Assembly (NCBI GenBank): GCA_020622105.1
Contig: JAHRYP010000006.1
Location: 62,001 to 126,000 of the forward strand
From: Methylotenera sp.
GTDB lineage: Bacteria > Pseudomonadota > Gammaproteobacteria > Burkholderiales > Methylophilaceae
Direction: 5' to 3'
Length of the DNA stretch: 64,000 nt
Made by a program: the position numbers and the translations under genes. The notes under the pieces were generated by a model that was given only the letters and a program-made list of their open reading frames with translations, ran no database searches and was not told the DNA's origin. Shown one piece after another: positions 6,274-64,000 of this stretch (position 1 is the first letter of the stretch; the number at the start of each line of letters is the position of its first letter).

Positions 6274-6764
6274 AAGTAATATTATTTCTTTGTTTAAGAG
6301 TTTTGCAAGAAACTGTTTTTTCTATCAGAAATTGATAGCAATACTAACCGCAATGCTCATGTCTGCTTAACTCAGCGCCCAGGGGCGTATCAGGTGTGAT
6401 AAGCCAGCAAGCTGGTAAGTATTGCTGAAAAATTTAATCTTGTCATTCCAAAGTGTTACGAATAATCCATGCAACATATTGAGTGATATGTGTTTTTCAA
6501 TACAGATTAAAAGCGGCGATGTTTTGTATTTTTATTAAAACTAATGCCATTTTTAGTTTCGTGCAAAGTTCTCTTATGGATTTAAATAAATACAATTGGA
6601 CCATTATAAATTGCCTAGCGCATCCATGCGAATTTAATGTGATGCATATATTACTAAAATTGATTAAAAAGAAATTGCTTTACAGGGTTTAAACTTGTTG
6701 CTAGGATTTAATGTAAATTATTAGAAATGTTCGTAACTAACGAAATTAGAAAAGGAATTTCAAT
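6274..6764. other. Divergent intergenic region mrcA / pilM
   Basis: This 491-bp AT-rich gap separates two divergent genes and should hold promoters for both. Small hairpins are visible around 6375-6415 (GCGCCC/GGGGCG and CCAGC/GCTGG). I found no convincing -35/-10 pair. An open frame at 6483-6692 has no ribosome-binding site and an unconvincing composition, so I do not call it a gene. AAGGA at 6752-6756 is the ribosome-binding site for the TTG start of pilM. Confidence 0.4.
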
Positions 6765-61178: not shown

Positions 61179-63116
61179 ATGGCAAGACCAAAAAAGAGCG
61201 ATCAAACAGCTGAAAAAGAAACAGAAGAGTTTATTAGCACGGATATGCAAGAGGTAAGCGCAGAAGAGCGCCGTACCCGTCTTAAAAGCTTAATCGTTTT
61301 AGGCAAAGAGCGTGGTTACCTCACTTATGCCGAAATTAACGATCACTTGCCTGATGATGTGCAGGGATCTGAGCAGATAGACGGTATCATCGGCATGATC
61401 AACGACATGGGTATTCAGGTGTACGAAGAAGCGCCTGATGCTGAAGTGCTGTTGATGTCTGACTCACCACCGGCAGTGACCGATGATGATGCGGTAGAAG
61501 AGGCTGAACAGGCGCTAGCGACTGTAGATTCAGACTTCGGCCGTACGACTGACCCGGTGCGTATGTATATGCGCGAAATGGGCACAGTGGATTTGCTTAC
61601 GCGTGAAAGCGAAATTGAAATTGCACGCCGTATTGAAGACGGCTTAAAACACATGGTACAGGCGATTGCCGCCTGCCCAACCACGGTTGGCGCATTGCTT
61701 GAGCTGGTAGATAAAGTAGAAAAAGACGAGCTTAGCGTTGATGATCTGGTGGATGGTTTAATTGACTCTGATATTGGTCTGGATGATGGCATGACTGCCG
61801 AGGCTGAAGAAGAAGTAGAGGCTGAAGAAGATGACGAAGATGAGGATGAAGATGCTGATGGTGCAAAAGCCGCAGCAATCTCAGCTGAAGCATTAGCTAA
61901 ACTCAAGGAAGAATTGCTCAAGCGCTTTACTATAGTACGTGCAGCCCATCAGAAAATGATGGAAATTCTGCCGTTAAGAGGCTCACAAGATCCTGAGTAC
62001 CAATCATTCCTTGCAGAGATTCTGGAAGAGCTTACTGCATTCCGCTTTTCACCAAAACAGGTTGAAGCGCTTTGTGACCAAGTGCGTGACTTGGTGGAAA
62101 CCGTGCGCGGCCATGAACGTAAAGTACTGGATTTCTGCGTTGAAAAATCCGGTATGCCTAGAGCTCACTTTATCAAGTCATTCCCGGGTAATGAAAGCAA
62201 CCTGAACTGGCTGGCAGAAGAATTGCAGGCTGATAAGCCTTATGTAGAAAAACTGGCACGATTTAATCACTCAGTGCTTGATCAGCAGCAGCGTATTATT
62301 GATCTGGAAACTAAAGTTGGTATTTCAACTAAAGAGCTCAAAGAGATCAATAAACAAATGACGACTGGCGAGGCACGTGCCCGCCGCGCCAAGCGTGAAA
62401 TGATCGAAGCTAACCTGCGTCTGGTGATTTCTATTGCTAAAAAATACACCAACCGCGGTTTGCAGTTCCTGGATCTGATTCAGGAAGGCAATATCGGTTT
62501 GATGAAAGCGGTAGATAAATTTGAATACCGTCGCGGTTTTAAATTCTCTACCTATGCAACATGGTGGATTCGTCAGGCGATTACACGTTCGATTGCGGAC
62601 CAGGCACGCACCATCCGTATTCCGGTGCATATGATTGAAACGATCAATAAAATGAATCGTATCAGCCGTCAGATTCTGCAGGAAACAGGTGTAGAGCCAG
62701 ATCCAGCATTGCTGGCAGAGAAAATGGAAATGCCTGAAGACAAGATCCGCAAGATCCTGAAAATCAGCAAAGAGCCAATTTCCATGGAAACACCGATTGG
62801 TGACGATGAAGATTCACATTTGGGCGATTTCATTGAAGACAGCACAACGCTGGCACCAGTGGACGCGGCTGTTTATGCAAGCCTGCGTGACGCAACCAGT
62901 GAAGTGCTTGAATCACTGACACCGCGTGAGGCGAAAGTCTTGCGTATGCGTTTCGGTATTGAAATGAATACTGACCATACATTGGAAGAAGTAGGTAAAC
63001 AGTTTGACGTAACGCGTGAGCGTATCCGCCAGATTGAAGCCAAGGCATTACGTAAATTACGTCATCCAACCCGCTCAGAAAGATTAAGAAGCTTCCTCGA
63101 AACAGGCCAAGATTAG
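61179..63116 (+). CDS. rpoD: RNA polymerase sigma factor RpoD (sigma-70)
   Basis: A 645-residue primary sigma factor. Region 1.1 ([20 protein letters not shown]), region 1.2 ([19 protein letters not shown]), an acidic non-conserved insert (about residues 205-225, mostly Asp and Glu), region 2 ([21 protein letters not shown], then [20 protein letters not shown]), region 3 and region 4.2 ([20 protein letters not shown]) are all present. It ends the macromolecular synthesis operon. tRNA-Ile sequences follow within 60 bp. Confidence 0.98.
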
Positions 63117-63174: not shown

Positions 63175-63219
63175 GGCCCCTTAGCTCATGCTTGGTTAGA
63201 GCAGCGGACTCATAATCCG
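63175..63219 (+). pseudogene. Intron-less 5' half of tRNA-Ile(CAU)
   Basis: GGCCCCT opens a perfect tRNA 5' acceptor strand. The D arm (GCTC...GAGC), the anticodon stem GCGGA/TCCG and the loop CTCATAA follow, so the CAT anticodon is uninterrupted. Similarity stops at 63219: no T arm, no AGGGGCC and no CCA appear downstream. From 63183 on it is identical to the 5' exon of the intron-bearing gene 163 bp further on, and it also shares a TAAAAT box about 23 bp upstream. It cannot give a mature tRNA. Confidence 0.85.
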
Positions 63220-63382
63220 ATGCTCTTCTTAAGTGGCTAGTGGGTTTTCAGACAGGTTTCATGTGCTTAGGTGCATAAAGTAGTAAAAAGTAATTTGTAA
63301 TACTGAAACATCATTAAGAAAGTAGTTTCAGAAAAGAATAGATGTGGGTAAATGTTATAAAATGCCCACGTTGTAAGTTTAA

Positions 63383-63675
63383 GGCCCTTAGCTCATGCTT
63401 GGTTAGAGCAGCGGACTCATATGTAAATGTGCCATATACGTGGAAACTGTATATGGGATGGTGTCAAATTCGGTGAAACCTGACGGCAGCAATGCACAAG
63501 GCAATGCCGAGCTAAGCTTCAAATAGAAATGTTTGTTGAAAGTGTAGAGACTAGACGGCACCCACCTAAAGCAATCGTAATGGTTGATATGGTGAAGGCA
63601 TAGTCCAGGGAGGCGGGGAAACCGTCACAAACCAGAATCCGTTGGTGCTGTGTTCGACTCACAGAGGGGCCACCA
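63383..63675 (+). tRNA. tRNA-Ile(CAU) interrupted by a group I intron
   Basis: The 5' exon is 63383-63420 and the 3' exon 63636-63675. Spliced, it gives a D arm GCTC/GAGC, anticodon arm GCGGA-CTCATAA-TCCGT, variable loop TGGTG, T arm CTGTG-TTCGACT-CACAG, 3' strand AGGGGCC and an encoded ACCA. The acceptor stem and CAT anticodon fit tRNA-Ile2, whose C34 would be modified to lysidine by TilS to read AUA, rather than tRNA-Met. The 5' acceptor strand reads GGCCCTT with one C fewer than needed, leaving two mispairs unless this is a sequencing slip. TATAAA at 63356-63361 could be its -10 box. Confidence 0.88.
63421..63635 (+). ncRNA. Group I self-splicing intron in tRNA-Ile(CAU)
   Basis: A 215-nt intron sits directly after the anticodon CAT. 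P1 pairs CAT|AT with ATGTG (63427-63431) around a GTAA tetraloop, giving the obligatory U-G pair at the 5' splice site. P2 is CCATATAC (63432-63439) with GTATATGG and a GGAAAC loop. P3 pairs GGTGTC (63460-63465) with GGCACC (63557-63562). P7 pairs GACTA (63549-63553) with TAGTC (63601-63605). P9 is GGCGG/CCGTC with a GGAAA loop. The last base is the expected G (63635). The core resembles the Azoarcus tRNA-Ile intron. There is no room for a homing endonuclease. Confidence 0.93.
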
Positions 63676-63679
63676 TTTA

Positions 63680-63714
63680 AGACGACGTAGGGAGAGATCT
63701 CTAGGTCGTTTTTT
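63680..63714 (+). terminator. Intrinsic terminator after tRNA-Ile
   Basis: An interrupted stem ACGAC..TAG..GAGA / TCTC.TA.GTCGT ends in TTTTTT, five bases after the encoded CCA. Confidence 0.75.
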
Positions 63715-63892: not shown

Positions 63893-64000
63893 ATGAAGCA
63901 TATCACGCTAGAGACCAGACTAAGATTCAAAAGAATCGCTCGTTATAGAGTTAAAGCTAAGAAACGTAGAAAATTGAAAGGCAAGGTTTTAGTAAATAAG
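63893..64000 (+). CDS. Start of an unrecognised basic protein (truncated by window edge)
   Basis: An ATG at 63893 opens 36 codons without a stop to the right edge. The peptide is very rich in Lys and Arg (RLRFKRIARYRVKAKKRRKL). I do not recognise it. There is no good ribosome-binding site, and the 180 bp before it are far more AT-rich than the rest of the window, which suggests acquired DNA. It may be the start of a gene or chance. Confidence 0.3.
   Translation, partial: MKHITLETRLRFKRIARYRVKAKKRRKLKGKVLVNK

Follow-up and report, generated by a model that had tools for sequence, protein, structure and literature searches.

A tRNA-Ile(CAU) gene of a Methylotenera-like MAG, located near the end of the window (the whole stretch of 64,000 nucleotides that was analysed), is interrupted by a 215-nt group I intron. 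Sequence comparison shows that an integrative element has split the native tRNA-Ile(CAU) gene in its anticodon loop and that the interrupted gene is the replacement copy, carried at the element's end. It is fairly probable that this intron-bearing replacement self-splices and that the intron masks the attachment core of the element. The relevant features of the window, with the basis of each assignment, are as follows.

61179..63116, + strand: rpoD (named by eye), ORF of 645 aa; similar ORFs lie upstream in relatives
63175..63219, + strand: 5' half of the native tRNA-Ile(CAU) with AATCCG, left scar of the insertion; sequence and a weak tRNA match (23.6 bits)
63209..63215, + strand: CTCATAA, the 7-nt anticodon loop; shared by the two ends of each of ten elements of relatives
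63220..63382, + strand: element left end, reaching to the replacement tRNA; like sequence in G162, G165, G173, G047, G147 and G138 (by reading)
63383..63420, + strand: 5' exon of the replacement tRNA-Ile(CAU), acceptor strand one C short compared with relatives; sequence and ARAGORN
63421..63635, + strand: group I intron, 215 nt, after CAU; Rfam match, ARAGORN, alignment and covariation
63636..63675, + strand: 3' exon of the replacement tRNA-Ile(CAU), including CCA; sequence and ARAGORN
63681..63714, + strand: terminator-like hairpin and T run, by eye; similar behind the copies of several relatives
63893..64000, + strand: start of a 356-aa ORF, possible element cargo; L148 5894-6964

The consensus scan listed no terminator or promoter at 63681-63714.

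The group I intron and the reading of AUA

The insertion at 63421-63635 lies between CAU (63418-63420) and AATCCG, and its last base, as read from the sequence, is G. An earlier note, made from the letters alone, had proposed a group I intron immediately 3' of the anticodon in a tRNA-Ile(CAU) gene, and the sequence analyses confirm this. The Rfam model Intron_gpI (RF00028), run in the E-value mode, matches positions 63408-63628 with 39.6 bits (E 2e-8). The covariance search that the note had proposed as a check thus finds the intron, although the score is below the Rfam gathering score of 50, which is a listing threshold rather than a biological trait, and for this reason a default Rfam scan lists nothing here. 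The proposed tRNA search succeeds as well: ARAGORN calls no tRNA at 63383-63675 without introns, and with introns allowed it gives a single tRNA over this span, with anticodon cat and an intron of 215 nt.

In 38 aligned introns (alignment A2, which omits the odd rows L075, L076 and L095 and one duplicate), 22 of the 52 predicted pairs have changed on both sides with pairing kept. These pairs are mostly in P2, the P5 extension, P6 and P9, with one each in P4 and P8. P3 is invariant and hence carries no covariation information; P7 pairs in the window row and is absent from the nested fold. The U-G splice-site pair and the terminal G described in the note are both borne out. The guide G (G17) opposite the exon U is invariant (38/38), the constancy of the U carrying no weight as it is fixed by the extraction pattern. 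The terminal G precedes the 3' exon in 42 of 42 introns with the 3' exon in view; the remaining 4 of the 46 tried are incomplete, the stretch ending first, and a non-G would also be listed as incomplete. A conserved core with variable peripheral stems in a betaproteobacterial host, also stated in the note, was judged a right description. The single-sequence fold is modestly better than that of shuffles (z -2.1, 6/200 shuffles equally good). The precursor would self-splice using the exon U:guide G pair and the terminal G, yielding an AUA-reading tRNA. A reading in which the intron would link the upstream 5' half with its 3' exon was rejected as unsupported.

The 5' exon of the window gene reads GGCCCTTAG, and the other intron-bearing copies of the same tRNA type that were compared read GGCCCCTTAG. 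An extra G in the P9 loop of the window intron is absent from 37/37 other aligned introns. The lack of one C (63383-63390) and the gain of one G (63613-63621) could represent decay or homopolymer sequencing errors.

AUA accounts for 105 of the 862 isoleucine codons in the 36 window ORFs of at least 200 aa. Neither tRNA nor pattern searches of the 96%-complete MAG found a second complete tRNA-Ile(CAU), such as the intron-free gene that the note had named among the findings that would refute it; the sole other CAU tRNA (L008) is elongator-Met-like by eye. AUA decoding probably relies on the intron-bearing gene, and the claim of the note that it depends on splicing is kept at this strength.

Integrative elements in the anticodon loop of tRNA-Ile(CAU)

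In many relatives, rpoD is the upstream neighbour of tRNA-Ile(CAU). Behind rpoD of the window sits a second tRNA-Ile(CAU) 5' half, with sequence diverging after AATCCG. A decayed orphan 3' half of tRNA-Ile(CAU) was found on another contig of the window genome (G000:C45:10038). It carries a terminator resembling that of an intact native copy, and it is followed by two genes with relatives behind the rpoD locus of G147 (82% identity for one, 42% over 138 residues for the other). The window genome, which is grouped in one genus with G119, has no match to the element integrase at 1e-40. Judging by these remnants, the window element is decayed, its right end, decayed as well, being on the other contig, and thus the cell would now depend on the intron-bearing copy. 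A test with neighbouring genes for an empty site in close relatives produced G147 alone, and so the empty site rests on the rejoined halves and on intact genes elsewhere. Possible cargo of the element is the 356-aa ORF and, beyond the window, a DUF4325 protein that comes after it; PADLOC has no match for either. The earlier note, right about the group I intron of tRNA-Ile(CAU), had missed the split native gene, the element end and the position of the intron on the attachment core.

Both ends of such elements were found on one contig in G188 (~10 kb), G192 (~24 kb), G187 (tandem), G189, G190, G199 and G159, and across contigs in G165, G119 and G102; the element of G191 is inverted. At one end of these 11 elements the native 5' half joins the element, and at the other the native 3' half departs, so that in 11/11 relatives examined the target tRNA is split with a displaced fragment at the far end. 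In ten elements, G191 not being among them, the two ends have CTCATAA in common, which is exactly the anticodon loop. The rejoined native halves are called as a tRNA in all 11 pairs. Acceptor pairing averages 6.7 of 7 for own halves versus 5.0 for crossed halves, 18 of the 110 crossed pairs also reaching 7. The acceptor strand of the replacement differs from that of the native half in 6 of 10 elements, which fits arrival of the replacement from elsewhere.

A tyrosine integrase is encoded behind the intron-bearing replacement in G188, G197, G192, G187, G430, G441, G656 and, twice, G386. Pfam integrase domains were found in five of the seven proteins tested; the integrase of G430 and one of those of G386 have no Pfam domain at 0.001 and were assigned by similarity. 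Several elements also encode smaller proteins (~190 aa) with integrase domains. PADLOC models match 7 of 10 cargo proteins that were hand-picked as defence-like, namely methyltransferase, restriction enzymes, CBASS-type cyclase and AbiU. The plasmid search returned two weak Tritonibacter matches alone, with 52% of the query covered, the phage-record search returned no match, and IMG/VR contained no relative of the one integrase searched. In G122 and G047 (L131, L142) an integrase that is P4-like by eye starts just downstream of the intron-bearing tRNA. These integrases were rejected as parts of the element described here, as their different repeats suggest a second element, probably residing at the tRNA 3' end.

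A group I match was found in 16 of 187 genomes of the family, and the exact intron-core pattern in 46 stretches of genome contigs. By context, 27 of these loci are of the element type (26 by script, and L094 with a shorter half), 13 are native unsplit genes adjoining rpoD or hrcA (neighbours named by eye), 2 are in neither class and 4 were dropped (L069, not a tRNA; L082, from the genome of L064; L074, at a contig end; L095, decayed). As the 46 loci were chosen for the intron, 27/46 cannot show a need for it. The intron-free junction occurs in the family at 111 places in 107 genomes, its pattern being unable to match intron-bearing genes and thus counting splits, not introns. Among the 103 of these places that were read, 95 are intact, 7 are split with an intron-bearing replacement behind and 1 is a fragment.

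The left-end pattern CATAATCD matched 0 of 399 genomes of the order, where the wider pattern CATAAV was applied instead. Its scan for a broken or interrupted loop gave 12 matches in 11 of the 399 genomes. Four genomes have a split with an intron-bearing replacement, two (G758, G742) have a split with an intron-free replacement, and three intron genes have no half within 1.5 kb upstream; the remainder are one contig end and one split apparently made by another integrase. By these counts, which are not independent as the genomes are partly related, the layout in which an element splits the native tRNA-Ile(CAU) and brings an intron-interrupted replacement is recurrent across Betaproteobacteria. 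Two partial copies lie serially behind a complete one in L181 (G114:C4, ~2651-2839 and ~6367-6568); they keep the 3' part of the intron and the tRNA 3' half, with other sequence in place of the 5' part.

Proposed masking of the attachment site

On integration, the element splits the native tRNA-Ile(CAU) in its anticodon loop and supplies a whole replacement tRNA. In the DNA of this replacement, the intron divides the attachment core in two. Because the halves are separated, the element's tRNA could not serve as an attachment site for its own integrase or for sister elements, and splicing would restore the tRNA at the RNA level. The anticodon loop is also a usual home of tRNA group I introns, and hence the position alone proves little for masking.

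Sampling by integrase avoids selecting for introns. In 200 genomes of the family of G188 and 399 genomes of the order, nine integrases adjoin a replacement tRNA-Ile(CAU). All nine replacements, which are few and partly related, are disguised at the CTCATAA site: seven by an intron (G188, G386 twice, G187, G656, G430, G441), two by another anticodon stem, and none is plain. The intron-free, stem-swapped copies have GGCGA/TCGCT in G580 and GTCGA/TCGAT in G639, where the integrase is cut by the contig end; both differ from the native half. A tRNA-Ile half lies upstream in eight of the nine, and one G386 element joins another element at this place. The classical solution, with one reconstituted tRNA, is seen in G468.

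The introns of the replacements are of two kinds and interrupt the loop at either 33/34 or 36/37. The site between U33 and C34 is the one occupied in G441, G656 and one G386 element; the group I model gives 34 bits for G386 and 30 bits for G656, and the intron of G441 has exactly the sequence of the G386 one. In G102:C72 the CAU is followed by a 264-nt intron with a score of 86 bits. A distinct group I intron of 245-247 nt was observed between U33 and C34 of the replacement tRNA-Ile(CAU) in L235, L325 and L330. Another group I intron (44 bits) was noted in a tRNA-Ser(UGA), assigned by eye, at L146 4090-4296 (G136:C335), near ORFs that are PIN-domain-like and HTH-like by eye.

Nine relatives of the integrase, some of them distant, stand beside tRNA-Lys, Phe, Cys or Pro genes, all intron-free; eight of these genes have no half within 700 bp upstream and the ninth has 50 bp in view. 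Two relatives adjoin split tRNA-Lys and tRNA-Phe genes where no replacement was seen, and beside several others no tRNA is visible. In L344, L352 and L354 related integrases adjoin tRNA pieces, again with no visible replacement: tRNA-Lys(CUU) and tRNA-Phe are each represented by a 5' half broken off in the anticodon loop, and tRNA-Ile by a 3' half.

The intron-free replacements of G758 and G742 stand at scars where this integrase is absent within ~16 kb downstream. One stem pair is changed in the G742 replacement and none in that of G758, a genome with an integrase relative elsewhere. Two halves lie in series ahead of the intron-bearing copy of G441, the first of them preceded by sequence like the left end of G758. 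By sequence they look like earlier intron-free replacements that were themselves split later. The last copy in a series of this type is intact by necessity, and therefore the series shows only that plain copies get hit.

In a tree of 42 introns (L064, L069 and the incomplete L081, L083, L088 and L091 are omitted) 6 changes are required to explain the element state, and well-supported branches force no fewer than 4 of them. The intron of G103 (L068), whose gene is native and unsplit, clusters with an element-borne Methylophilaceae intron. Loss of the direct repeat of the 5' half would leave the intron in a native-looking gene, and G103 may be an example. The intron core was seen as well in 8 IMG/VR viral contigs (L308-L315), some of them near-copies of each other; there it interrupts CAU tRNA genes that look Ile-like by eye, some of which adjoin other tRNA genes. 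The viral contigs are a possible reservoir of the intron.

A different explanation, which we regard as possible and rather doubtful, is that the intron does not serve to mask anything: it arrived with a captured tRNA, for instance from a phage or from a native intron gene, and persists since splicing makes it harmless. The 13 of 46 intron loci that are native and unsplit speak both for this explanation and against masking. The viral CAU tRNA genes, the interleaving of element and native states on the tree, the replacements of G758 and G742 and the selection of the 46 loci for the intron agree with it too. Further points against masking are these two scars, the two integrase relatives at split tRNA-Lys and tRNA-Phe genes and, in the window genome, the failure to find the integrase and the two indels of the intron-bearing copy. 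However, two intron kinds at two positions and two stem swaps converge on the same outcome, with no intact target in 9/9 replacements that have an integrase, and the intron-free copies of G441 seem to have been hit again. We therefore prefer masking of the attachment core by the intron.

Two further alternatives concern the window gene itself. Local tandem duplication, with the upstream half a pseudogene, the intron an ordinary tRNA intron and no element involved, would agree with the single half copy and single full copy on the window contig and with the failure to find an integrase in the window genome. It is highly improbable given that the missing 3' half is present as an orphan, that element ends, and in several cases an integrase, lie between the halves in other genomes, where 11/11 pairs rejoin to a tRNA, and that the replacement has an acceptor strand unlike the native half in 6/10 elements. 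It is unlikely, too, that the window gene is a broken copy, with its short acceptor and extra P9-loop G, and that the assembly lacks the tRNA-Ile(CAU) that decodes AUA. The two single-base indels are unseen in other intron-bearing copies, and the MAG is 96% complete with several expected tRNAs not seen; yet the remaining exon parts, the core and the splice sites match relatives, both indels are in homopolymer runs, as expected of sequencing errors, and no alternative tRNA-Ile(CAU) was found.

Masking may be part of a wider scheme, to which we give an even chance, with the ribozyme acting as DNA camouflage: the site in the replacement would be hidden by an intron or by a swapped stem, the elements would spread introns that lack a homing endonuclease, and loss of the half repeat would leave a native-looking gene.

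Relation to known systems and significance

The Azoarcus intron, which we take to be ~205 nt long, to follow CAU and to have a GUG guide, is a natural reference for the window intron. The pre-tRNA-Ile of Azoarcus sp. BH72 carries a group IC3 intron, as stated in the available part of a review (PMC3984707). The likeness, compared by description, is that both are group I introns of a tRNA-Ile gene; the window gene differs in being a replacement brought by an element and in standing next to a split native gene. The Azoarcus sequence was not among the 46 stretches that matched the exact core pattern.

Excerpts of two papers describe islands in tRNA genes. The target of Islander islands is restored with a tDNA fragment (PMC4383910), and the anticodon loop with the flanking stem corresponds to overlap and core in a classical attachment site (PMC8371274). 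The elements studied here share with the islands of these excerpts the tyrosine integrase, as found in relatives, the 7-bp crossover in the anticodon loop, the split target and the displaced fragment at the far end. Unlike the Islander islands as excerpted, they bring an entire separate tRNA gene interrupted by a ribozyme.

The closest proposal concerns the tRNA-Thr(GGU) of Caldiarchaeum, where, in the part of the paper at hand (PMC3293823), the authors suggest that an added intron could prevent further invasion. There, too, a 5' tRNA fragment lies upstream of a complete tRNA and the intron was gained with a mobile element. That case, according to the same text, concerns a single population, with an archaeal tRNA intron at 24/25, whereas the introns here are bacterial group I introns that interrupt the very crossover; they occur in many lineages, and the stem swap is an alternative to them. 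IStrons likewise tie a group I intron to a DNA-moving enzyme; in the excerpt of PMC1924603 the insertion sequence itself includes the intron, whereas here the intron resides in a cargo tRNA and has no transposase of its own. The open-access literature, to which the search was confined with subscription papers outside it, yielded no paper in which the masking of integrase sites is connected to group I introns of bacteria.

The present material offers one testable answer to the question why small group I introns without homing endonuclease persist in the anticodon loops of bacterial tRNA genes, consisting of a selective reason, the hiding of the attachment site, and a vehicle, the integrative elements. 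The intron type resembles the lineage to which a model ribozyme belongs, and natural controls are at hand in the two intron kinds, the stem swaps and the integrase-less scars.
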